Source of the DNA: Wenyingzhuangia marina
GTDB taxonomy: Bacteria; Bacteroidota; Bacteroidia; Flavobacteriales; Flavobacteriaceae
Length of the DNA stretch: 64,000 nt
NCBI RefSeq assembly: GCF_900130035.1
Contig: NZ_FQXQ01000004.1
Coordinates: forward strand, 248,001-312,000
Direction of reading: 5' to 3'
Shown here one piece after another: positions 5,820-59,416 of this stretch. The position numbers and the translations under genes were made by a program. Numbering within the stretch: the first letter of the stretch is position 1; the number at the start of each line of letters is the position of its first letter. The notes under the pieces were generated by a model, which saw only the letters and a list, made by a program, of their open reading frames with translations, did no database searches and had not been told where the DNA came from.

Positions 5820-8570
5820 ATGAAAAATCACATACTTATAATCTTAAACTTGTTAATGATTGGTAAAATCTATTCACAAGAAATAAATTCTAACAATACT
5901 ATAGTAGCTCAACCTATTCCTGATAGAACTGTTTACTATAAAGTTTCTGATGAAGGTGTTGCTAAGCCAATTATATGGGGATTAGATTTAGCATGGTTGA
6001 GTGAAAGTAACATTAGACGAGGAGTCGCTTTTATGGGAAAAGAGAATGTAGATGTAATAAGATCTTCATTTATACCTACTCAACCTTTATTAAACGATAA
6101 TCAATTGCAAGGTGATGCATTGTCTAATACAAATTTAAGAATTAGTATTCTTAAAAAGTATTTAGATCCAGGATCTAACATAGTACTTAATTCAGATCAC
6201 CCAAGTGTAAATTCTTATTATAAAGGAAATGCACAAAACTGGGCAAAATTAATAGAAGTTACAGCTAAGTTACACCAAGATGCAGGTTTTAATATCACTA
6301 CTGTATCCCCTTTTAATGAACCCGACTATAGTGCAACAGGACAAGGTACAATTCAAGATTTTTATAACATATGTGGAGAATTAAAAAACAATTCATTTTT
6401 TGATGGTATTCGTATTTCTGGAGGTAATACTCTTAATAATGATAAGGCCTCTGAGTGGTATAACTTTTTAAAAGATAGATTAGACGAAGGAAATACACAT
6501 CAACTTGCTGGTGGTTTTGATAGTTATGCTAATTTTTATCAAGAAGTAAGAGAAAATGGAGATCATGCAACCAATGATGAATTGCATAATGTTATGGAAG
6601 CTATGGTTGGAGTAGAATACGGTATGCAAACAGGAATTTGGTGGGGAACTGCAGAGTTAGCAAGAGGTGAATTTGTTAAAGCGAGTGATGGAGTAAGGTT
6701 AGGATATAATGAACATAGACCTAATTGGACTGCTGCTTCGGTATACCGCGCACCTTCAGGGAAAACTCAGGCTTTCGTAGGTTCTTCAGAAAGACAAGCG
6801 GTAACAACTACTTATAGATTTGTATCTACAGAAAGAGATGTGTTTTATGATGGACATGGTCCTCAAAGAGAATATACAGTTGTAATGCCAGGAGGAACGG
6901 GGTATCAACAAGGGCAAAGCAATGCAGAAACTGTAGTGAATATTACTTGGGGAGATGATATTCAGCCAGTAGTTGATGGACGTTATATTATAGTAAATAG
7001 AAGTACAGGTAAAGTATTGCAAGTTGATGGAGGTTCTTTAAATGCAGGTGCAAATTTAGTTCAAGGAACTAATATAGGAGCAACTCACCAACAATGGAAT
7101 GTAAAACCAGTATACGCAAAAATAGGAGGTGATTTTAGTTATGTGACTATTACAGCTCAACATAGCGGTAAATCTCCTGATGTATTAAACTTTTCTTTAA
7201 ATAATGGAGGGAATATTATAGTGTGGGATGATTTAAAAAGTGGAAATCAACAATGGTATTTAGATTATGCTGAAGACGGTTGGTTTTATATTCGTAGTCG
7301 CCATAGTGCAATGTGTTTGAATGTAACTAATTCAAGTACATCAAATGTTTATCAATGGGAAAAAAATGGAGGTGAAAATCAACAATGGAGATTTTTACCT
7401 GTTGATGCTCCTGTTGAGTTTGATGCTCCAGAAGCTCCTAGTAATTTAACTACGACTGAAAATTCGGCATCTATTCAGTTGAATTGGTCTAAAAATATAG
7501 AATCAGACGTTGTTTCTTATAACATTTATCGTTCGACAAGTAAAGGAGCTGATTATAATACAATTGCCAGAAATGTAAGTGTAAATTCTTATGTAGATAA
7601 TACGGTTATTCCAGGTGTAGAATATTTTTATGTAATTAAAGCAGTAGATAAATCATTAAATACGTCCATGTATTCAAATGAAGTTTCAGTTTCGGCTATT
7701 GGAGATAATACAATAGTAGCTCATTACAAATTTGATGGAAACACGGTAGATAGTTCTATAAACCAGAATAATAGTTCTTATTACGGAGTTTTATCTACAA
7801 CTGAAGGTAAGATAGGTAGTAGTATAAAATTAAATGGTAGAAATAACTTTGTACAATTACCAACAACCATTGCAAATCATCAAGAAATAACAGTTGCTAC
7901 GTGGGTTTATTTTGACGGAGGAAGTTCATTGCAACATATTTTTGATTTTGGAAGTGGAGAGTCTGATAGAATGTTTTTAACACCTAATTCTGCGTCTGGT
8001 GAACTGTATTTTGGAATTAAAACTAATGGAGTAGAAGAAAGTTTGTCTACTACAAGCTTGTCGGCAGGAGCATGGCACCATGTGGCTGTTACTTTAAACT
8101 CATCTTTAGCAAGTTTATATGTAGACGGTGTTTTAGTAGATGAATCAAACTCTATCGTAAACAGCCCACTAGATTTTAAACCTGCTTTAAATTATATAGG
8201 GCGTAGCCAATATTCAGGTTCGTTATTTGATGGGAATATTGATGATTTTAGAGTTTACAATTATGCATTAACAGTTGATGAAATTAAAAAATTGGTAGAC
8301 TTAGATAATCTTTTTACTGCTAAAGTGGAGAAAAACGAAATTAATGTATCTCCTAATCCAACATCAGGAAAGGTAGATTTATACCTGCCAAGTAATCATA
8401 AATTAATAGCAATTGAAGTATATAGTATTAATGGAAAATTAATAAGTCAATCAAATTATGAGGTAGAAAATGGGAAGATTGTTCTAGATTTAGAAAATGA
8501 ATTACCAGGAATCTATTTTGTTCGTATTCCATTATACCCTGAAAATACAATTAAAATCATTAAAAAATAG
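5820..8570 (+). CDS. Secreted multidomain protein: clan GH-A-like (possibly GH30-like) barrel, ricin lectin, FN3, LamG, T9SS tail
   Basis: A 916-residue protein with a signal peptide (cleavage near residue 19-20, after IYS). Residues about 35-375 look like a (beta/alpha)8 clan GH-A hydrolase: TTVSPFNEPDYS carries the NEP motif with E167 as probable acid/base, and E260 or E266 in the VMEAMVGVEYG segment may be the nucleophile. Then follow a ricin-type beta-trefoil (about 386-527, with three QQW repeats), an FN3 domain (about 537-625), a LamG/concanavalin-like domain (about 632-820) and a T9SS type A sorting domain (about 840-916, INVSPNPTSG). T9SS export predicts display on or release from the outer surface, so an endo-acting role is plausible. 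I cannot assign it to a numbered GH family with confidence; GH30-like is a guess from barrel order. Confidence 0.7.
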   Translation: MKNHILIILNLLMIGKIYSQEINSNNTIVAQPIPDRTVYYKVSDEGVAKPIIWGLDLAWLSESNIRRGVAFMGKENVDVIRSSFIPTQPLLNDNQLQGDALSNTNLRISILKKYLDPGSNIVLNSDHPSVNSYYKGNAQNWAKLIEVTAKLHQDAGFNITTVSPFNEPDYSATGQGTIQDFYNICGELKNNSFFDGIRISGGNTLNNDKASEWYNFLKDRLDEGNTHQLAGGFDSYANFYQEVRENGDHATNDELHNVMEAMVGVEYGMQTGIWWGTAELARGEFVKASDGVRLGYNEHRPNWTAASVYRAPSGKTQAFVGSSERQAVTTTYRFVSTERDVFYDGHGPQREYTVVMPGGTGYQQGQSNAETVVNITWGDDIQPVVDGRYIIVNRSTGKVLQVDGGSLNAGANLVQGTNIGATHQQWNVKPVYAKIGGDFSYVTITAQHSGKSPDVLNFSLNNGGNIIVWDDLKSGNQQWYLDYAEDGWFYIRSRHSAMCLNVTNSSTSNVYQWEKNGGENQQWRFLPVDAPVEFDAPEAPSNLTTTENSASIQLNWSKNIESDVVSYNIYRSTSKGADYNTIARNVSVNSYVDNTVIPGVEYFYVIKAVDKSLNTSMYSNEVSVSAIGDNTIVAHYKFDGNTVDSSINQNNSSYYGVLSTTEGKIGSSIKLNGRNNFVQLPTTIANHQEITVATWVYFDGGSSLQHIFDFGSGESDRMFLTPNSASGELYFGIKTNGVEESLSTTSLSAGAWHHVAVTLNSSLASLYVDGVLVDESNSIVNSPLDFKPALNYIGRSQYSGSLFDGNIDDFRVYNYALTVDEIKKLVDLDNLFTAKVEKNEINVSPNPTSGKVDLYLPSNHKLIAIEVYSINGKLISQSNYEVENGKIVLDLENELPGIYFVRIPLYPENTIKIIKK

Positions 8571-8937: not shown

Positions 8938-11900
8938 ATGGATTTTAAAAACAATTGTTCTTATTATTTACTCGTTGTTTGTTTTTTAATAACAAATATG
9001 TTGTCAGCACAAACATTTGAACATATAGAGCATTTAAACGGTTTACAAGATGTTGCAAAAAATAATGGAACAGCAGTAGCTGATTTTGATCAAGACGGTG
9101 ATTTAGATTTATTTGTGGTAGCAAAAGCAAAAGAAGACCCAAGTATTAGTAAAACCAAAAGTAGGTTGTTTAGTAATAATAATGATGGGACTTTTACTGA
9201 TGTAACAAATACCTCGGGATTGGTAAACCTATTTACTAACACTGAAAACGCAGAACCTAGCGAAACTCTAGTAGGATATAAATTTGGTGCTTTTTGGGGA
9301 GATTATGACAATGATGGTTTTCCAGATTTATTTATGACACACATAAATAAAATACAATTATTTCATAATGAACAGAATGGTACTTTTAAAGATGTTACAG
9401 ATTTAGTTGGACTTAAAAAATATAATAACTGTATAAACACGGATGCCACTTGGTTCGATTATAACAATGATGGTTATCTTGATATATATGTTTCAGATTG
9501 GAGTAATGACCTTGCAGGTAATAAATTATATAGGAATAATGGTGATAATACATTTACCGATGTTAGTGATATATTTCAAAGTCCTATTAAAAAACACTCT
9601 TACCAAAGCATACCATTTGATTTTAATAACGATGGTTGGATGGATTTATATGTTGCTAATGATTATAGCACAGAAACGAATGACCTTTTTATTAATAATG
9701 GAGGTTCTGGTTTTGTAGAACAAGCAGAGAAATACAATTTAAATCGTTCTCTAAATGATATGGGAATTGCCATTGGGGATTATAACAATGATGGTTTTTT
9801 TGATTTTTATGTTACGGCAATAGTAAGTAACGGACTTTTACATAATCAAGGTAATAATATTTATAGAGATAGGGCCATTGAACTAGGCGTTGCAGATGCA
9901 GGTTGGGCTTGGGGTGTTACTTTTTCAGATTTTGATTTAGATAGAGATGAAGATTTATATGTAGTTGGTGGTTGGGAAGATAGTTTTTATTCTCAAGATA
10001 GATATAGAAACAAATATTACGAGAACATATTAAATAGAGGGCATTCAGGTTTTATAGATAGTTCGGATAAGAGTAAGTTGGGAGAGATAACAATAAGTGT
10101 TTCTCAATCTATTTTTGACTATGATAATGATGGTGACTTGGATGCCTTTATCACAAATAATGATGGGCCATCTTATTTTTATGAGAACAAAACCTTAGAT
10201 TTTACGAATCAAAGTTTAGGACAGCCTAATTGGTTTAAAGTAAAATTAGAGGGTACAGTATCAAATAGAGATGCTATTGGAACTAAGTTGTCTATAAAAA
10301 CAGTTAGTGGAACATTACATAGATATTATACTGGTAAAGGTTTTTTATCACAAAGTTTACAATCTGTTCATTTTGGATTGGGATCAGATAATGAGATTTT
10401 AGAATTAAATATTACTTGGCCATCCGGTGCAATAGAAACATTTAAGAATATATCAGTAAATAAAACTGTTTTGGTAAAAGAGGGTGTTGGTATAGAGGCT
10501 TATAATAGTTTACCTAGTGTAAAAGTTTATGGTTGTACGGACCCCAATTCTTGTAATTACAATCCAAATGCTACGATTAGTGATGGAAAATGTACCTATT
10601 TAGAAGGAGGGCATATTTCTGGTAAAAAGAATGTAATTCAAGAAAATATTGAAGTTTACTCTTATAATTTACCAGAAGGATCTAGAGCGGATTGGGATAT
10701 TATTGGAGGTGAAATTTTAGAAATATCAGATGAAGGTGTTTTAACAGTAAAGTGGGGCAGTCCTGGTACAGGAGTTTTAAAGGTAGTAGAATCGAATGAT
10801 TATTGTGTGAGTGAATCAAAAGAGTTTACAGTTAGTATATACAAAGATGTAGTAGATACGACCAATCCTCATTCAGTAGCAAGAATATGGAATGAGACTT
10901 TATTATCATTAATACGAAAAGATTATGCAAGACCTACGGTACATGCAAGAAATTTATTTCATACAAGTATTGCTATGTATGATGCATGGGCAGTTTATGA
11001 TGAATCGGCATTGACTTATTTACTAGGAAATACCATTCATGGTTTTAGTAGTGAATTTGATGGTTTTAGTACCTTAGAATACATAAAAAAAGCTAGAGAG
11101 AAAACGATAAGCTATGCTATGTATAGATTATTATCTCACAGATTTAAACATGCTCCGAACCCAATATTGTCTCAATCTATTATAGATGCTACAATGACAG
11201 AGTTAGGTTATGATAGTTCTATTACAGATGTTGATTATAGTACAGGAAATCCTATTGCTTTAGGGAATTATATTGCTACACAAGTAATAAATTACGGATT
11301 ACAAGATGGTTCAAATGAAGAAGAGTTATATGCTAATAAGTTCTATCAGCCAGTTAATCAACCTCTAGATCTATCAAACCCTAAAAGTTTAGAAAATATA
11401 GACCCTAATAGATGGCAACCTTTAAGCTTTAATACATTTATAGATCAGAGTGGAAATGTAATAGGAGGAGTTACTCCAGGTTTCTTAGGTCCAGAATGGG
11501 GAAATGTTTTACCTTTTTCACTATCCGAACAAGACAAATCTGTTTACAGTAGATCAGGACATGATTATGCAGTGTATCATGACCCCGGAGCTCCTCCGGT
11601 TATTTCTGATGATGAATATAAGTGGGCATTTAGTTTAGTATCTAAATGGGGATCTCATTTAGACCCTACCGATGGAGTGATGTGGGATGTTTCCCCAAAA
11701 TCTATAGGTAATATTGATTTTGAAGAGTTACCAACCAGTTTTACTGATTATGCTAAGTTTTATAAAGAGGTTGCAGGTGGTGATATTGGAAAAGGAAGGT
11801 TTTTAAACCCTGTAACGCAAACATCTTATCAGGAACAATGGGTTCCTAGAGGAGACTATACAAGAGTTTTGGCAGAATTTTGGGCAGACGGACCAGATTC

Positions 11901-12960
11901 AGAAACACCACCAGGTCATTGGTTCACAATCTTAAATTATGTAAATGATCATAAACTATTGGTAAAAAAACTAAATGGTCAGGGAAAAGTTTTAGACAAT
12001 TTAGAATGGGATGTTAAGTCGTATTTTATATTAGGAGGAACGATGCATGATGTAGCGGTAGCGGCATGGGGAATAAAAGGTTGGTACGACTATATTCGAC
12101 CTATATCAGCCATACGCTACATGTCAGAAAAAGGACAAAGTAGTGATCCATCAAAACCTAATTATCATAAAGACGGAATTCCATTACAAACAGGATTGAT
12201 AGAAGTTATAAAAGAAGGAGACCCTTTGGCAGGAGAAAATAATATAAATGTTGGAAAAATAAAGTTGTTTTCATGGAGGGGACATAAATTTATAGAAGAC
12301 CCAGCGGTGGATGAAGCAGGTGTTGGTTGGATTTTAGCAAAAGATTGGTGGCCATATCAAAGACCAACTTTTGTAACCCCACCATTTGCAGGTTATGTTT
12401 CAGGTCATTCAACTTATTCAAGAGCCGCAGCAGAAGTGATGACAGCATTAACGGGAGATGAATATTTTCCTGGAGGTTATGGAGAGTTTATTGCTAAGAA
12501 AAATGAGTTTTTGGTTTTTGAGGAAGGACCATCAGTAGATGTAAAACTACAATGGGCTACTTATAGAGATGCTTCAGATCAATGTAGTTTATCAAGAATA
12601 TGGGGAGGGATTCATCCTCCTTTAGATGATATTCCAGGTAGGATTATAGGAGAGGAAATAGGTATAGAATCTTATAAATATGCGACTAGTTTTTTTAATA
12701 AGAAAACTGTAGATGATAACACAAGAATAGAGGTAAGTCCCAATACGCTTAGAGAGGGTATAAGAGAGGTTGAAGTAAAAAATGTATTAGAGGATAGTAC
12801 TATCTATCTGTATAATATAAATGGAAAATTTTTAGAGGTTTTAAGCAAGGAGTATAATTCAAGGACTAATAGTTATGTTGTAAGGCTTCCTGTATCATTA
12901 TCAGCAGGAATCTATATTTTAAAAGTAAATAATCAATCTAGTAAAATAATCGTTTTATAG
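8938..12960 (+). CDS. T9SS-exported FG-GAP/ASPIC-UnbV protein with vanadium-haloperoxidase-like (PAP2) domain, copy 1
   Basis: 1340 residues, signal peptide ending LSA-Q (about 24). Residues 49-402 hold seven DxDxDG-type Ca-binding loops (at 49, 122, 174, 228, 281, 331, 394), an FG-GAP/VCBS beta-propeller. An ASPIC/UnbV domain spans about 425-515, then a GCTDPNSCNYNPNA motif (532-545). Residues about 645-1255 form a vanadium-dependent haloperoxidase/PAP2-type domain with the full signature: K1135-x6-R1142-P1143, S1155-G1156-H1157, R1220-x5-H1226-x3-D1230, equivalent to the vanadate/phosphate pocket. A T9SS sorting domain closes the protein (about 1263-1340). Likely on the cell surface. Whether it oxidises halides or is a phosphatase cannot be settled from motifs. 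The last 2.95 kb is nearly identical to the next gene, 15 bp downstream. Confidence 0.85.
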   Translation: MDFKNNCSYYLLVVCFLITNMLSAQTFEHIEHLNGLQDVAKNNGTAVADFDQDGDLDLFVVAKAKEDPSISKTKSRLFSNNNDGTFTDVTNTSGLVNLFTNTENAEPSETLVGYKFGAFWGDYDNDGFPDLFMTHINKIQLFHNEQNGTFKDVTDLVGLKKYNNCINTDATWFDYNNDGYLDIYVSDWSNDLAGNKLYRNNGDNTFTDVSDIFQSPIKKHSYQSIPFDFNNDGWMDLYVANDYSTETNDLFINNGGSGFVEQAEKYNLNRSLNDMGIAIGDYNNDGFFDFYVTAIVSNGLLHNQGNNIYRDRAIELGVADAGWAWGVTFSDFDLDRDEDLYVVGGWEDSFYSQDRYRNKYYENILNRGHSGFIDSSDKSKLGEITISVSQSIFDYDNDGDLDAFITNNDGPSYFYENKTLDFTNQSLGQPNWFKVKLEGTVSNRDAIGTKLSIKTVSGTLHRYYTGKGFLSQSLQSVHFGLGSDNEILELNITWPSGAIETFKNISVNKTVLVKEGVGIEAYNSLPSVKVYGCTDPNSCNYNPNATISDGKCTYLEGGHISGKKNVIQENIEVYSYNLPEGSRADWDIIGGEILEISDEGVLTVKWGSPGTGVLKVVESNDYCVSESKEFTVSIYKDVVDTTNPHSVARIWNETLLSLIRKDYARPTVHARNLFHTSIAMYDAWAVYDESALTYLLGNTIHGFSSEFDGFSTLEYIKKAREKTISYAMYRLLSHRFKHAPNPILSQSIIDATMTELGYDSSITDVDYSTGNPIALGNYIATQVINYGLQDGSNEEELYANKFYQPVNQPLDLSNPKSLENIDPNRWQPLSFNTFIDQSGNVIGGVTPGFLGPEWGNVLPFSLSEQDKSVYSRSGHDYAVYHDPGAPPVISDDEYKWAFSLVSKWGSHLDPTDGVMWDVSPKSIGNIDFEELPTSFTDYAKFYKEVAGGDIGKGRFLNPVTQTSYQEQWVPRGDYTRVLAEFWADGPDSETPPGHWFTILNYVNDHKLLVKKLNGQGKVLDNLEWDVKSYFILGGTMHDVAVAAWGIKGWYDYIRPISAIRYMSEKGQSSDPSKPNYHKDGIPLQTGLIEVIKEGDPLAGENNINVGKIKLFSWRGHKFIEDPAVDEAGVGWILAKDWWPYQRPTFVTPPFAGYVSGHSTYSRAAAEVMTALTGDEYFPGGYGEFIAKKNEFLVFEEGPSVDVKLQWATYRDASDQCSLSRIWGGIHPPLDDIPGRIIGEEIGIESYKYATSFFNKKTVDDNTRIEVSPNTLREGIREVEVKNVLEDSTIYLYNINGKFLEVLSKEYNSRTNSYVVRLPVSLSAGIYILKVNNQSSKIIVL
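10009..12960 (+). repeat. Near-identical 2952-bp direct repeat, unit A
   Basis: Matches 14044-16995 at a constant offset of 4035 bp. Comparing line by line I found two differences, both silent third- or first-position changes near the 3-prime end: T at 12717 versus C at 16752 (GAT/GAC) and C at 12808 versus T at 16843 (CTG/TTG). Identity begins abruptly inside the last propeller region and ends with the stop codon. Confidence 0.95.
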
Positions 12961-12975
12961 AAATAAAAGAGATTT

Positions 12976-15900
12976 ATGATTAAAGTTAAAATATACTTTT
13001 TTTTATGTTTTTTTTTAGGAATAACATGTGTGATTTATTCGCAAACATTTGAACATATAGAGTATTTAAATGGCTTACAAGATGTTGCAAAAAATAATGG
13101 AACAGCAGTAGCTGATTTTGATCAAGACGGTGATTTAGATTTGTTTGTGGTAGCAAAAGCACAAGATAAAAGTGATGCTAATGTTACGGCAAGTAAATTG
13201 TTTAAAAATAATAATGATGGGACTTTTACTGATGTAACACAATCTTCAGGTTTAGTTAACTTGTTTCCTTTAGATGAAATAGGAGAGGTTTCTGATGCCT
13301 TAACAGGGTATAAGTTTGGTGTGTTTTGGGGAGATTATGATAATGATGGTTTTCCTGATATATTTATGACTCACACTAATAAAATGCAGTTGTTTCATAA
13401 TCAACAAGATGGAACATTTCAAGAGGTTACAGAACAAGCAGGAATTAAAAAGTACAATGATTGTATTAATACAGGAGCTACTTGGTTTGATTATAATAAT
13501 GATGGTTTTATAGATGTTTATGTGTCCGATTGGGATGGTGATTGTGAAGGTAATCGTCTATATAAAAATAAGGGGAATGGAACTTTTGAAGATGTGAGTA
13601 ATATTTTTCAGGGACTTTCTAGTGCACACTCGTATCAAAGTATTCCTTTTGATTTTAATGATGACGGATGGTTAGATTTATATGTCTTAAACGATTTTCC
13701 ATTAAATCAAGGAGGAGCTAATGATTTATTCATTAATCATAATGGGGAATTCTTTACAGAGGAAGCAGATAGCTATCATTTAGACATTGCAAGAGGAGAT
13801 ATGGGAGCAGCTGTTGGCGATTATAATAATGATGGGGAGTTTGAATTTTATATTGCTACAATAGGTAATAATGCATTATTTGAAAAACAAACAGATAATA
13901 CCTATAAAGACCTTTCTAGGGAACATAAAGTATATAATGCAGGTTGGGCTTGGGGTGTTACTTTTTCAGATTTTGATTTAGACCGTGATGAAGACTTATA
14001 TATTGTAAATGGATTTGATTATCCTAATGCTGGAATTGGGAACAACAAATATTACGAGAACATATTAAATAGAGGGCATTCAGGTTTTATAGATAGTTCG
14101 GATAAGAGTAAGTTGGGAGAGATAACAATAAGTGTTTCTCAATCTATTTTTGACTATGATAATGATGGTGACTTGGATGCCTTTATCACAAATAATGATG
14201 GGCCATCTTATTTTTATGAGAACAAAACCTTAGATTTTACGAATCAAAGTTTAGGACAGCCTAATTGGTTTAAAGTAAAATTAGAGGGTACAGTATCAAA
14301 TAGAGATGCTATTGGAACTAAGTTGTCTATAAAAACAGTTAGTGGAACATTACATAGATATTATACTGGTAAAGGTTTTTTATCACAAAGTTTACAATCT
14401 GTTCATTTTGGATTGGGATCAGATAATGAGATTTTAGAATTAAATATTACTTGGCCATCCGGTGCAATAGAAACATTTAAGAATATATCAGTAAATAAAA
14501 CTGTTTTGGTAAAAGAGGGTGTTGGTATAGAGGCTTATAATAGTTTACCTAGTGTAAAAGTTTATGGTTGTACGGACCCCAATTCTTGTAATTACAATCC
14601 AAATGCTACGATTAGTGATGGAAAATGTACCTATTTAGAAGGAGGGCATATTTCTGGTAAAAAGAATGTAATTCAAGAAAATATTGAAGTTTACTCTTAT
14701 AATTTACCAGAAGGATCTAGAGCGGATTGGGATATTATTGGAGGTGAAATTTTAGAAATATCAGATGAAGGTGTTTTAACAGTAAAGTGGGGCAGTCCTG
14801 GTACAGGAGTTTTAAAGGTAGTAGAATCGAATGATTATTGTGTGAGTGAATCAAAAGAGTTTACAGTTAGTATATACAAAGATGTAGTAGATACGACCAA
14901 TCCTCATTCAGTAGCAAGAATATGGAATGAGACTTTATTATCATTAATACGAAAAGATTATGCAAGACCTACGGTACATGCAAGAAATTTATTTCATACA
15001 AGTATTGCTATGTATGATGCATGGGCAGTTTATGATGAATCGGCATTGACTTATTTACTAGGAAATACCATTCATGGTTTTAGTAGTGAATTTGATGGTT
15101 TTAGTACCTTAGAATACATAAAAAAAGCTAGAGAGAAAACGATAAGCTATGCTATGTATAGATTATTATCTCACAGATTTAAACATGCTCCGAACCCAAT
15201 ATTGTCTCAATCTATTATAGATGCTACAATGACAGAGTTAGGTTATGATAGTTCTATTACAGATGTTGATTATAGTACAGGAAATCCTATTGCTTTAGGG
15301 AATTATATTGCTACACAAGTAATAAATTACGGATTACAAGATGGTTCAAATGAAGAAGAGTTATATGCTAATAAGTTCTATCAGCCAGTTAATCAACCTC
15401 TAGATCTATCAAACCCTAAAAGTTTAGAAAATATAGACCCTAATAGATGGCAACCTTTAAGCTTTAATACATTTATAGATCAGAGTGGAAATGTAATAGG
15501 AGGAGTTACTCCAGGTTTCTTAGGTCCAGAATGGGGAAATGTTTTACCTTTTTCACTATCCGAACAAGACAAATCTGTTTACAGTAGATCAGGACATGAT
15601 TATGCAGTGTATCATGACCCCGGAGCTCCTCCGGTTATTTCTGATGATGAATATAAGTGGGCATTTAGTTTAGTATCTAAATGGGGATCTCATTTAGACC
15701 CTACCGATGGAGTGATGTGGGATGTTTCCCCAAAATCTATAGGTAATATTGATTTTGAAGAGTTACCAACCAGTTTTACTGATTATGCTAAGTTTTATAA
15801 AGAGGTTGCAGGTGGTGATATTGGAAAAGGAAGGTTTTTAAACCCTGTAACGCAAACATCTTATCAGGAACAATGGGTTCCTAGAGGAGACTATACAAGA

Positions 15901-16995
15901 GTTTTGGCAGAATTTTGGGCAGACGGACCAGATTCAGAAACACCACCAGGTCATTGGTTCACAATCTTAAATTATGTAAATGATCATAAACTATTGGTAA
16001 AAAAACTAAATGGTCAGGGAAAAGTTTTAGACAATTTAGAATGGGATGTTAAGTCGTATTTTATATTAGGAGGAACGATGCATGATGTAGCGGTAGCGGC
16101 ATGGGGAATAAAAGGTTGGTACGACTATATTCGACCTATATCAGCCATACGCTACATGTCAGAAAAAGGACAAAGTAGTGATCCATCAAAACCTAATTAT
16201 CATAAAGACGGAATTCCATTACAAACAGGATTGATAGAAGTTATAAAAGAAGGAGACCCTTTGGCAGGAGAAAATAATATAAATGTTGGAAAAATAAAGT
16301 TGTTTTCATGGAGGGGACATAAATTTATAGAAGACCCAGCGGTGGATGAAGCAGGTGTTGGTTGGATTTTAGCAAAAGATTGGTGGCCATATCAAAGACC
16401 AACTTTTGTAACCCCACCATTTGCAGGTTATGTTTCAGGTCATTCAACTTATTCAAGAGCCGCAGCAGAAGTGATGACAGCATTAACGGGAGATGAATAT
16501 TTTCCTGGAGGTTATGGAGAGTTTATTGCTAAGAAAAATGAGTTTTTGGTTTTTGAGGAAGGACCATCAGTAGATGTAAAACTACAATGGGCTACTTATA
16601 GAGATGCTTCAGATCAATGTAGTTTATCAAGAATATGGGGAGGGATTCATCCTCCTTTAGATGATATTCCAGGTAGGATTATAGGAGAGGAAATAGGTAT
16701 AGAATCTTATAAATATGCGACTAGTTTTTTTAATAAGAAAACTGTAGATGACAACACAAGAATAGAGGTAAGTCCCAATACGCTTAGAGAGGGTATAAGA
16801 GAGGTTGAAGTAAAAAATGTATTAGAGGATAGTACTATCTATTTGTATAATATAAATGGAAAATTTTTAGAGGTTTTAAGCAAGGAGTATAATTCAAGGA
16901 CTAATAGTTATGTTGTAAGGCTTCCTGTATCATTATCAGCAGGAATCTATATTTTAAAAGTAAATAATCAATCTAGTAAAATAATCGTTTTATAG
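12976..16995 (+). CDS. T9SS-exported FG-GAP/ASPIC-UnbV protein with vanadium-haloperoxidase-like (PAP2) domain, copy 2
   Basis: 1339 residues with the same order of parts as copy 1: signal peptide (ending VIYS-Q), seven-loop Ca-binding propeller, ASPIC/UnbV, GCTDPNSCNYNPNA motif, haloperoxidase/PAP2 signature and T9SS tail. All pocket residues are kept, one position lower than in copy 1 (K1134, R1141, H1156, R1219, H1225). From about residue 357 to the end the protein is identical to copy 1. The signal peptide and propeller blades 2-6 differ (by eye about 60-65 percent identity), with insertions and deletions in loops. The first blade and the GWAWGVTFSDFDLD stretch are again near-identical. 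It starts 15 bp after copy 1, so the two are probably cotranscribed. The pattern points to recent duplication or gene conversion. Confidence 0.85.
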   Translation: MIKVKIYFFLCFFLGITCVIYSQTFEHIEYLNGLQDVAKNNGTAVADFDQDGDLDLFVVAKAQDKSDANVTASKLFKNNNDGTFTDVTQSSGLVNLFPLDEIGEVSDALTGYKFGVFWGDYDNDGFPDIFMTHTNKMQLFHNQQDGTFQEVTEQAGIKKYNDCINTGATWFDYNNDGFIDVYVSDWDGDCEGNRLYKNKGNGTFEDVSNIFQGLSSAHSYQSIPFDFNDDGWLDLYVLNDFPLNQGGANDLFINHNGEFFTEEADSYHLDIARGDMGAAVGDYNNDGEFEFYIATIGNNALFEKQTDNTYKDLSREHKVYNAGWAWGVTFSDFDLDRDEDLYIVNGFDYPNAGIGNNKYYENILNRGHSGFIDSSDKSKLGEITISVSQSIFDYDNDGDLDAFITNNDGPSYFYENKTLDFTNQSLGQPNWFKVKLEGTVSNRDAIGTKLSIKTVSGTLHRYYTGKGFLSQSLQSVHFGLGSDNEILELNITWPSGAIETFKNISVNKTVLVKEGVGIEAYNSLPSVKVYGCTDPNSCNYNPNATISDGKCTYLEGGHISGKKNVIQENIEVYSYNLPEGSRADWDIIGGEILEISDEGVLTVKWGSPGTGVLKVVESNDYCVSESKEFTVSIYKDVVDTTNPHSVARIWNETLLSLIRKDYARPTVHARNLFHTSIAMYDAWAVYDESALTYLLGNTIHGFSSEFDGFSTLEYIKKAREKTISYAMYRLLSHRFKHAPNPILSQSIIDATMTELGYDSSITDVDYSTGNPIALGNYIATQVINYGLQDGSNEEELYANKFYQPVNQPLDLSNPKSLENIDPNRWQPLSFNTFIDQSGNVIGGVTPGFLGPEWGNVLPFSLSEQDKSVYSRSGHDYAVYHDPGAPPVISDDEYKWAFSLVSKWGSHLDPTDGVMWDVSPKSIGNIDFEELPTSFTDYAKFYKEVAGGDIGKGRFLNPVTQTSYQEQWVPRGDYTRVLAEFWADGPDSETPPGHWFTILNYVNDHKLLVKKLNGQGKVLDNLEWDVKSYFILGGTMHDVAVAAWGIKGWYDYIRPISAIRYMSEKGQSSDPSKPNYHKDGIPLQTGLIEVIKEGDPLAGENNINVGKIKLFSWRGHKFIEDPAVDEAGVGWILAKDWWPYQRPTFVTPPFAGYVSGHSTYSRAAAEVMTALTGDEYFPGGYGEFIAKKNEFLVFEEGPSVDVKLQWATYRDASDQCSLSRIWGGIHPPLDDIPGRIIGEEIGIESYKYATSFFNKKTVDDNTRIEVSPNTLREGIREVEVKNVLEDSTIYLYNINGKFLEVLSKEYNSRTNSYVVRLPVSLSAGIYILKVNNQSSKIIVL
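14044..16995 (+). repeat. Near-identical 2952-bp direct repeat, unit B
   Basis: Second unit of the tandem repeat described at 10009-12960. The two downstream flanks share little beyond the stop codon. No insertion sequence or inverted repeat borders the units, so the repeat is explained by gene duplication with homogenisation rather than by transposition. Confidence 0.95.
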
Positions 16996-17007
16996 GAATA
17001 AATTAAT

Positions 17008-17301
17008 ATGAAAAAAACAATCTTTTTTGAGATATCAACTCCAAAATATTTTTATTATTTATCACAACGACTTTATATGCTCAAAAAGAGCCATTAAGAA
17101 GTTTTCCTCTTATTTTTTGTAAGATTATTTGAATGTCCTTTTAAAGAATTAAAACAAGTAGATATAAATTATTTTTTATCTATAGACCTAGATAAATTAT
17201 TAGCTCTCTTATTTAAGAGAAGTGTGATTAAAATGAAAAAAAAGAACTTATACATTGTTGATTACATGGTTTTGGAAGCTGTAAATACAAAAAAAAAATA
17301 G
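17008..17301 (+). pseudogene. Decayed 5-prime fragment of a GH127/DUF1680-like gene
   Basis: An ATG at 17008 begins a basic, hydrophobic leader; in a neighbouring frame it continues TTTLYAQKEPLRSFPLIF, like a signal-peptide end and mature start. After a further frameshift near 17118, a 60-codon frame (17119-17301) reads VRLFECPFKELKQVDINYFL and then SIDLDKLLALLFKR. From memory of the family, GH127/DUF1680 proteins begin with FPLxxVRLLDGPFK, then xxxYLLxLDPDRLLAPFLKEAGL, so order and spacing fit well. The rest of the roughly 600-residue enzyme is absent. GH127 enzymes are beta-L-arabinofuranosidases, which would suit this locus. The fragment cannot be functional. Confidence 0.65.
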
Positions 17302-20690
<3,389 letters not shown>

Positions 20691-58657: not shown

Positions 58658-59344
58658 ATGTCCCAAGAAATTGACATAATGAACTACGAAGAGATTGATG
58701 ATATAGGAGATAACCACATTGGTGATGTGACTAAAACTCCAATGCGAGCAGACGCTTTTGAATTATCTGATGCTGAAAAGATTGAGAAAATTCAGGAAAA
58801 CGTTAAAGAAATCATGGAAACGTTAGGGTTAGACTTAACGGATGATAGTTTGCAAGGAACTCCAAGACGTGTGGCAAAAGCATACGTTAAGGAATTGTTT
58901 GGAGGTTTAAATCCAGAAAATAAACCTAAGTTGTCTACATTTAACAACAGTTACCAGTACGGTGAAATGTTGGTGGAAAAAAACATAGTAGTTTATTCTA
59001 CTTGTGAACATCACTTATTGCCTATTATTGGTAGAGCACATGTGGCTTATATTTCTAAAGGTACTGTAGTAGGTTTGTCTAAAATGAATCGTATTGTAGA
59101 TCATTTTGCAAAAAGACCTCAAGTGCAAGAACGTTTAACTCGTCAGGTTGTAAAAGCTTTACAAGAGGCTTTAGGAACAGAAGATGTGGCTTGTATTATA
59201 GATGCAAAACATTTGTGTGTAAACTCTAGAGGAGTAAAGGATATTGAAAGTTCAACGGTAACGGCTGAATTTGGAGGTGCTTTTAAAAATGTAGAGAAAC
59301 AAAAAGAGTTTAGAGATTACATTAAATTAGAAACTAAGTTTTAA
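58658..59344 (+). CDS. folE: GTP cyclohydrolase I
   Basis: 228 residues. The active site is spelled YSTCEHHLLPIIGRAHVAYI (zinc Cys and His) and KMNRIVDHFAKRPQVQERLT, then CVNSRGVKDIESS. It turns GTP into dihydroneopterin triphosphate for folate synthesis. An N-terminal, acidic 40-residue stretch precedes the core. It has its own promoter within hisS and a strong terminator. Confidence 0.97.
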   Translation: MSQEIDIMNYEEIDDIGDNHIGDVTKTPMRADAFELSDAEKIEKIQENVKEIMETLGLDLTDDSLQGTPRRVAKAYVKELFGGLNPENKPKLSTFNNSYQYGEMLVEKNIVVYSTCEHHLLPIIGRAHVAYISKGTVVGLSKMNRIVDHFAKRPQVQERLTRQVVKALQEALGTEDVACIIDAKHLCVNSRGVKDIESSTVTAEFGGAFKNVEKQKEFRDYIKLETKF

Positions 59345-59366
59345 TTTTTTTGATGTAACATAAAAT

Positions 59367-59403
59367 AAAAAAGCCGAGCAATTTTAAATTGCTCGGCTTT
59401 TTT
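59367..59403 (+). terminator. Terminator of folE, bidirectional
   Basis: Long perfect stem AAAAAAGCCGAGCAATTT / AAATTGCTCGGCTTTTTT with a one-base loop centre; it also lies just downstream of the 102-residue gene on the other strand. Confidence 0.85.
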
Positions 59404-59416
59404 ATTTTTTTTATGA

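Follow-up and report, generated by a model that had tools for sequence, protein, structure and literature searches.

In the window, the 64,000-nucleotide stretch of the Wenyingzhuangia marina genome that was analysed (C5:248001-312000 of a 3.24-Mb assembly in 11 contigs), we found two tandem genes, here called A and B, which encode putatively secreted propeller proteins with a vanadium-haloperoxidase-like domain and which resemble each other as a mosaic. Their near-identical 3' parts, the homogenised tracts below, lie inside a 428-kb contig. The features of the pair, in window positions, are as follows (dS, synonymous divergence; T9SS, type IX secretion system).

8938 to 12960, forward strand: gene A, 1340 amino acids, with signal peptide, FG-GAP propeller, ASPIC/UnbV domain, linker, haloperoxidase-like domain and T9SS tail.
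12976 to 16995, forward strand: gene B, 1339 amino acids, with the architecture of A, starting 15 bp past the stop codon of A.
9013 to 9123, forward strand: older, near-identical patch in A, residues 26-62 (counterpart in B, 13045-13155).
9124 to 10008, forward strand: diverged propeller body of A, dS about 1.2 against B.
13156 to 14043, forward strand: diverged propeller body of B, in a clade with the second Tamlana copy, Aestuariibaculum and the genome G144.
9896 to 9941 in A and 13937 to 13982 in B, forward strand: 46-bp identical run, GWAWGVTFSDFDL region, a possible small conversion tract.
10009 to 12960, forward strand: homogenised tract of A, 2952 bp.
14044 to 16995, forward strand: homogenised tract of B, 2952 bp, with silent differences at 16752 and 16843.
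10273 to 10470 in A and 14308 to 14505 in B, forward strand: ASPIC/UnbV domain (Pfam), within the tract.
10858 to 12762 in A and 14893 to 16797 in B, forward strand: vanadium-haloperoxidase-like domain as modelled, with K1047, R1054, S1155-G1156-H1157, R1220 and H1226.
12739 to 12954 in A and 16774 to 16989 in B, forward strand: T9SS type A sorting tail (NCBIfam TIGR04183).

Base-by-base alignment of 10009-12960 with 14044-16995 found differences at 2 of 2952 positions, both silent, as the original prediction had read from the letters: 12717/16752 (GAT/GAC, Asp1260) and 12808/16843 (CTG/TTG, Leu1291). By Nei-Gojobori counts the tract has a dS of 0.003 (2 of 620 synonymous sites, no replacements), the patch of residues 26-62 a dS of 0.146 (3 of 22.7 synonymous sites, and one replacement), and the propeller body a dS of 1.195, which is near saturation (100.6 of 168.3 synonymous sites differ), with a nonsynonymous divergence (dN) of 0.304. 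Fisher tests on rounded counts separated tract from propeller (p 7e-79), patch from tract (4e-4) and patch from propeller (2e-5). These three classes of synonymous divergence along one alignment are a mosaic of three ages; the mosaic identity that had been proposed was thus recovered when the synonymous rate was compared along the gene, and uniform silent divergence is excluded. The mature region 5' of the tract is 70% identical in nucleotides between A and B. At the protein level identity is 62% over residues 67-330, 93% over residues 25-66 and 28% over the 24-residue signal peptide, so that the 60-65% identity claimed for propellers and signal peptides holds for the former and fails for the latter, and the near-identical start of the mature region is borne out by the patch. 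Directly 5' of the tract the codon alignment drops to 27 matches over one 60-column line, which includes a 6-base gap, and identical runs of 68, 46 and 33 bases were found 5' of the tract. None of 5000 codon-column shuffles matched the observed longest run and none the observed second run; for codons whose amino acid is conserved, the longest and second-longest stretches without a codon change had p values of 0.007 and 0.015. The 46-bp run holds GWAWGVTFSDFDLD, the internal stretch that had been singled out as near-identical.

The 5' edge of the tract is the point where similarity ends, and its 3' edge is the stop codon, beyond which the two genes have different neighbours. There are seven calcium-loop-like motifs in the N-terminal part (residues 49, 122, 174, 228, 281, 331 and 394), and the tract starts at residue 358, inside the propeller and past the sixth of them, so that it includes the seventh motif, the ASPIC/UnbV domain, the linker, the enzyme domain and the tail. 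Conversion had been placed on the catalytic half of the genes: a 3' conversion that takes in the enzyme-like domain is upheld, with its start at residue 358 and not at the domain border. The sharp change in synonymous divergence (dS 0.003, 0.15 and 1.2) is evidence of gene conversion between tandem paralogues, and conversion between neighbours accounts for the sharpness of the edges, for differences that are silent only and for the patch of greater age. The 3' ~2.95 kb, from residue 358 to the stop codon, would have been homogenised by homologous recombination between the adjacent genes, and the missing similarity upstream may have set the 5' limit of the exchange. As a control we compared dispersed paralogues inside three genomes: none of seven such pairs contained a piece above 82% nucleotide identity (BLAST, three longest pieces per pair), which makes the near-identity of A and B exceptional in this sample. 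The direction of transfer is not settled by the two silent sites: at one of them the GCA of G002, a genome of the same genus, is uninformative, and at the other its TTA is nearer the TTG of B.

Unequal crossing-over in a tandem array, with expansion to three genes and later loss of the last B, would by reasoning, and without direct evidence, likewise yield the 5' part of B joined to the 3' part of A. We consider it very unlikely, since it needs an exact loss of the last gene that left a GH127-like remnant (GH, glycoside hydrolase) beside the hybrid, and since it leaves the older patch unexplained. The rival readings discussed here and below are not all mutually exclusive.

Trees of the two parts of the genes were compared among relatives. 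A first set of 33 long open frames was hand-picked from 62 candidates, which included duplicates, fragments and stand-alone enzymes (L044, of similar length, was left out), and 7 of 29 further frames were added, the other 22 being cut at the locus start. The trees used 33 of 42 aligned rows, leaving out six that were shortened at the start by the choice of the first M, one second record and two far outliers; approximately unbiased (AU) tests and later trees used 25 of those 33 rows. In the propeller tree (residues 67-357, 33 rows), B forms a clade with the second tandem copy of Tamlana nanhaiensis, with which it pairs, Aestuariibaculum and G144 (support 100/99), and A lies outside; the clade has support of 100/98.8 on 25 rows and 100/100 without the flagged identical runs. 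In the enzyme tree the identical sequences of A and B join G002 with support of 100, and Aestuariibaculum and G144 group weakly with the first Tamlana copy (Shimodaira-Hasegawa-like approximate likelihood ratio test 92; 70/88 on 25 rows). For the propeller, a grouping of A, B and G002 was rejected by the AU test (p 0.0016; p 0.00027 without the flagged runs, residues 91-322). For the enzyme part, a grouping of Tamlana2 (the second Tamlana copy), Aestuariibaculum and G144 was rejected (p 0.0060); the same set with B added gave p 0.0060, with B left free as it is identical to A, and does not count as a second test. Since the B propeller groups with other genera, the propeller divergence appears old and the 3' part reset lately; on our reading of the trees, the split between the two propellers predates, or nearly predates, that of the genera, and the recent reset affected the 3' part alone. 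The idea of propellers diversifying around a fixed enzyme did not survive this grouping. Of selection diversifying the binding half, which had also been suggested, the propeller body gave no sign (dN/dS ~0.25, with dS near saturation).

The same trees bear on a history in which the whole gene was recently duplicated in tandem and one of the copies then acquired a divergent propeller segment from a different bacterium. Such a history would accommodate a tract whose identity is consistent with any recent common origin, a B propeller whose kin are found in other genera, and the presence of one copy only in same-genus G002. We nevertheless regard it as unlikely: the patch of intermediate age implies an exchange before the last event, the B propeller is close to no sampled donor (the nearest sequence is 69% identical), and Tamlana, too, has a tandem pair, which follows a GH30-like relative and whose second copy is of the B type.

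Altogether, we give a probability of roughly three in four to the reading that A and B are a tandem pair of long standing, which lies in a gene cluster for polysaccharide degradation and codes for secreted propeller-haloperoxidases, and that gene conversion has acted on it at least twice. Several results weigh against it. The AU p values are uncorrected for the number of tests; on the full propeller, a grouping of A and B alone was not rejected (p 0.083) and reached p 0.040 only without the flagged runs. Orthology of A and Tamlana1 (the first Tamlana copy) was considered and dropped, the two being apart in the best tree with an AU p of 0.275. A scan for switches between Tamlana1-like and Tamlana2-like residues was not significant for B (permutation p 0.146), nor for A (p 0.134). 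For the enzyme domain, structural alignment to algal bromoperoxidases reached only Z ~10, no better than to acid phosphatases (Z ~11 over ~200 residues). Finally, the 11-contig assembly has a single small-subunit ribosomal RNA gene, on a 5586-bp contig, which suggests that it is a short-read assembly in which long repeats were collapsed elsewhere. This last point would favour an assembly artefact, in which the 3' halves are truly diverged, or one copy is absent, and a repeat consensus was used twice; bubble smoothing could also have removed a few differences from the tract. We hold such an artefact to be highly improbable, given that the distinct 5' parts (dS ~1.2) both enter the tract inside the 428-kb contig, that nothing else in the assembly matches the tract except a 70% copy on contig C4, that two differences are retained within the tract and that, by reasoning, a tandem loop of this kind has a single ordering.

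Pfam families above cut-off in both proteins are the FG-GAP repeats (FG-GAP_3), UnbV_ASPIC, DUF6851 and VCPO_2nd (31.4 and 29.6 bits; cut-off 27), the last two within the C-terminal domain. A profile of 32 relatives of this domain matched vanadium haloperoxidases in the PDB (best E 5.9e-13), and the AlphaFold2 model of residues 641-1275 (predicted local distance difference test, pLDDT, 84.1) matched them in Foldseek with E 1.4e-15. In VIA-align the model reached Z 29.9 over 426 residues at 2.8 A against 9l8x, Z 28.4 to 29.9 over 388 to 437 residues against bacterial haloperoxidases and NapH3, 28.4 to 28.5 against the first bacterial iodoperoxidase and 22 to 23 against the fungal chloroperoxidase. 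As modelled, the domain has the helical fold of the vanadium-dependent haloperoxidase family. It has the fold, over most of its length, and the full set of active-site residues in common with XhnO11 (9l8x), NapH1 (3w35/3w36), the iodoperoxidase (4cit/4usz) and the Curvularia chloroperoxidase (1vnc), at 16-24% identity in structural alignments; unlike in those enzymes, it sits behind a propeller and an ASPIC/UnbV domain and carries a T9SS tail. All expected vanadate residues, listed above, are present; among 32 sequences six active-site residues are invariant and G1156 is conserved in at least 90%. Their correspondence was established by comparing spacing by eye with the vanadate residues of the Curvularia enzyme, which we take to be K353, R360, S402-G403-H404, R490 and H496 (R360, H404 and H496 also appear in PDB titles). 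The C-terminal domain is probably a vanadate-binding enzyme that uses peroxide to oxidise halides, or else closely related in function to such enzymes. As to function only, it could be a phosphatase or a halide-independent catalyst sharing the fold: class A acid phosphatases match its second half with the score given above, and the best matches include NapH3, which is homologous to haloperoxidases and catalyses another reaction. This alternative seems to us rather unlikely, in view of the Z scores to the bacterial haloperoxidases and NapH3 and to the fungal chloroperoxidase, and of the two Pfam matches in the domain.

The proteins end in a type A sorting tail (TIGR04183, 30.0 and 31.7 bits, cut-off 23; Pfam Por_Secre_tail stays below its cut-off of 27, at 23.6 and 23.3 bits), and both are predicted to be exported via the T9SS. 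The N-terminal part (model of residues 25-560, pLDDT 90.7) has murine CRTAC1 (9etn) as its best match, with a profile E of 4.9e-26 and a template-modelling score of 0.73 for the fold, and the CRTAC1-like order of an FG-GAP propeller followed by an ASPIC/UnbV domain is found in A and B. CRTAC1 is an animal protein and is not known to carry an enzyme domain. The calcium-loop propeller might position the enzyme domain on a partner or a glycan. The two recognition surfaces suggested at the outset are, on these data, no more than an idea. In literature searches on haloperoxidases, ASPIC/UnbV proteins and the T9SS of Bacteroidetes we found no description of a propeller-haloperoxidase fusion, which is no proof of absence.

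We found two further mismatches between gene halves among the relatives. The first concerns G002. Between A and G002, the proportions of differing synonymous (pS) and nonsynonymous (pN) sites are 0.650 and 0.257 over residues 63-640, and 0.511 and 0.065 over residues 641-1270 (pS difference p 1e-4; fourfold-site difference p 9e-4). The pN ratio of the halves against G002 is 3.96 for A and 3.77 for B, with the switch at about residue 640, the border of the enzyme domain. In 13 other pairs, excluding A-B, the ratio is 0.87 to 1.94 and the pS of the halves is less than 0.06 apart; some sequences recur in several of these pairs, which are therefore not independent, and the two lowest ratios belong to the Aestuariibaculum/G144 mosaic. 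In the tree of residues 411-640, G002 remains with the window genes (100/99) on long branches, so that an older paralogy and a faster change of the N-terminal part are both possible. A mosaic within the G002 propeller, which had been suspected, found no support in the switch scan (p 0.612).

The second mismatch is that of Aestuariibaculum and G144, in which 78 and 77% of the informative sites before about residue 410 are Tamlana2-like, as against 36 and 38% of those beyond it; none of 2000 and none of 1000 permutations, respectively, were as extreme. The Tamlana1/Tamlana2 switch scan was significant for L058 and G144 only; L154 gave p 0.017 with a breakpoint at residue 41, on just 7 left-hand sites. 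The tree of residues 411-640 places the two Tamlana genes together as sisters (93/94), so the recombination may be on the Tamlana side. These two mismatches suggest recurrent recombination and do not prove it. It is conceivable, though in our judgement somewhat doubtful, that the propeller-haloperoxidases of marine Flavobacteriaceae recombine repeatedly between paralogues and put different propellers on a shared enzyme half (at residues 358, ~640 and ~410). If this were true and the propeller were the targeting part, it would amount to a modular re-aiming of an extracellular oxidant. Gene trees and orthology calls in the propeller-haloperoxidase family depend on the half chosen.

Of 397 genomes of the family, an even sample of a larger group, 107 contained a match to the enzyme domain (E up to 1e-150), with at most three candidates scored per genome. 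Among the 107, two adjacent full-length copies occur in the genome of the window only; in G224 the starts of two matches are separated by 11 kb. Across 80 loci of named genomes, with flanks of up to 8 kb, two copies per locus were found in Tamlana nanhaiensis alone; many relatives are stand-alone enzymes of ~720-770 residues. A Winogradskyella relative (L039, 7011-8591) has an in-frame stop in its propeller part and is perhaps a pseudogene or an assembly error. The window's own genome holds a third full-length propeller-haloperoxidase (L109, 7486-11565, on contig C4) of 62% protein identity, which adjoins SusC/SusD-like genes, labelled by reading and without a family search.

The gene mosaic is real and of a known kind, and its mechanism is ordinary. 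The gingipains RgpA, RgpB and Kgp and the protein HagA of Porphyromonas gingivalis are likewise surface proteins of Bacteroidota, exported by the T9SS, with near-identical modules beside differing ones. Excerpts of PMC10319874 give 97% identity for the catalytic domains of RgpA and RgpB and 76% for their propeptides; those of PMC5266723 describe adhesin repeats that recur unchanged in hagA, rgpA and kgp, both inside a gene and from gene to gene, and discuss gene conversion for surface proteins in general. In contrast, gingipains are proteases with adhesins, whereas A and B are a tandem pair with a fixed enzyme and tail and a differing N-terminal propeller. Bacterial duplicates such as rRNA operons and a PE_PGRS gene pair, presented in parts of PMC6002687 and PMC1762029 as cases of concerted evolution or rearrangement, represent the same kind of process in other genes. 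A and B, which in this assembly share the enzyme half and the export tail and differ at ~40% of positions in the propeller, offer a natural paired experiment, and their comparison would reveal the role of the propeller in this widespread fusion.

Upstream of the pair lie a GH43 gene and a secreted GH30-like gene, and downstream GH2 and fucosidase genes (Pfam). The GH30-like protein (5820-8570) is secreted and has ricin-type lectin and LamG domains; its label comes from likeness, the Pfam GH30 family not being hit. Relatives of it adjoin propeller-haloperoxidase genes in Tamlana (56%) and G144 (58%). The search for the same pair in related genomes, as proposed at the outset, succeeded in part. 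Tamlana nanhaiensis has two full-length genes in tandem (L029, 6131-14210) behind the GH30-like relative and another enzyme gene, with 71% enzyme identity and without recent conversion, and G002 has a single copy, with relatives of the GH43 genes on one side and a GH127-like gene on the other, followed by the GH2 gene. Behind B only a remnant of the GH127-like gene is left, GH127-like being a label given without a family search:

17019 to 17363, forward strand: decayed GH127-like remnant, with start and end pieces left and the middle lost (intact in G002, L110 14172-16571).

Against G002 the enzyme domain has a dS of 0.86, and the neighbouring GH43-like and GH2 genes 0.86 and 0.46; lying within the range of its neighbours, the enzyme domain behaves as an ordinary orthologue. 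In Zobellia galactanivorans, according to an excerpt of PMC9296495, a vanadium-dependent iodoperoxidase is upregulated on the brown alga Ascophyllum nodosum relative to alginate. Together with the glycoside hydrolases beside A and B, this fits a role in halogen and peroxide stress during algal breakdown, and by analogy the two proteins may help the cell to handle such stress while algae are broken down. Elsewhere in the window, at 59362-59408, lies a terminator-like 47-bp near-perfect palindrome, 98% identical to its own reverse complement, just past a gene ending at 59344.

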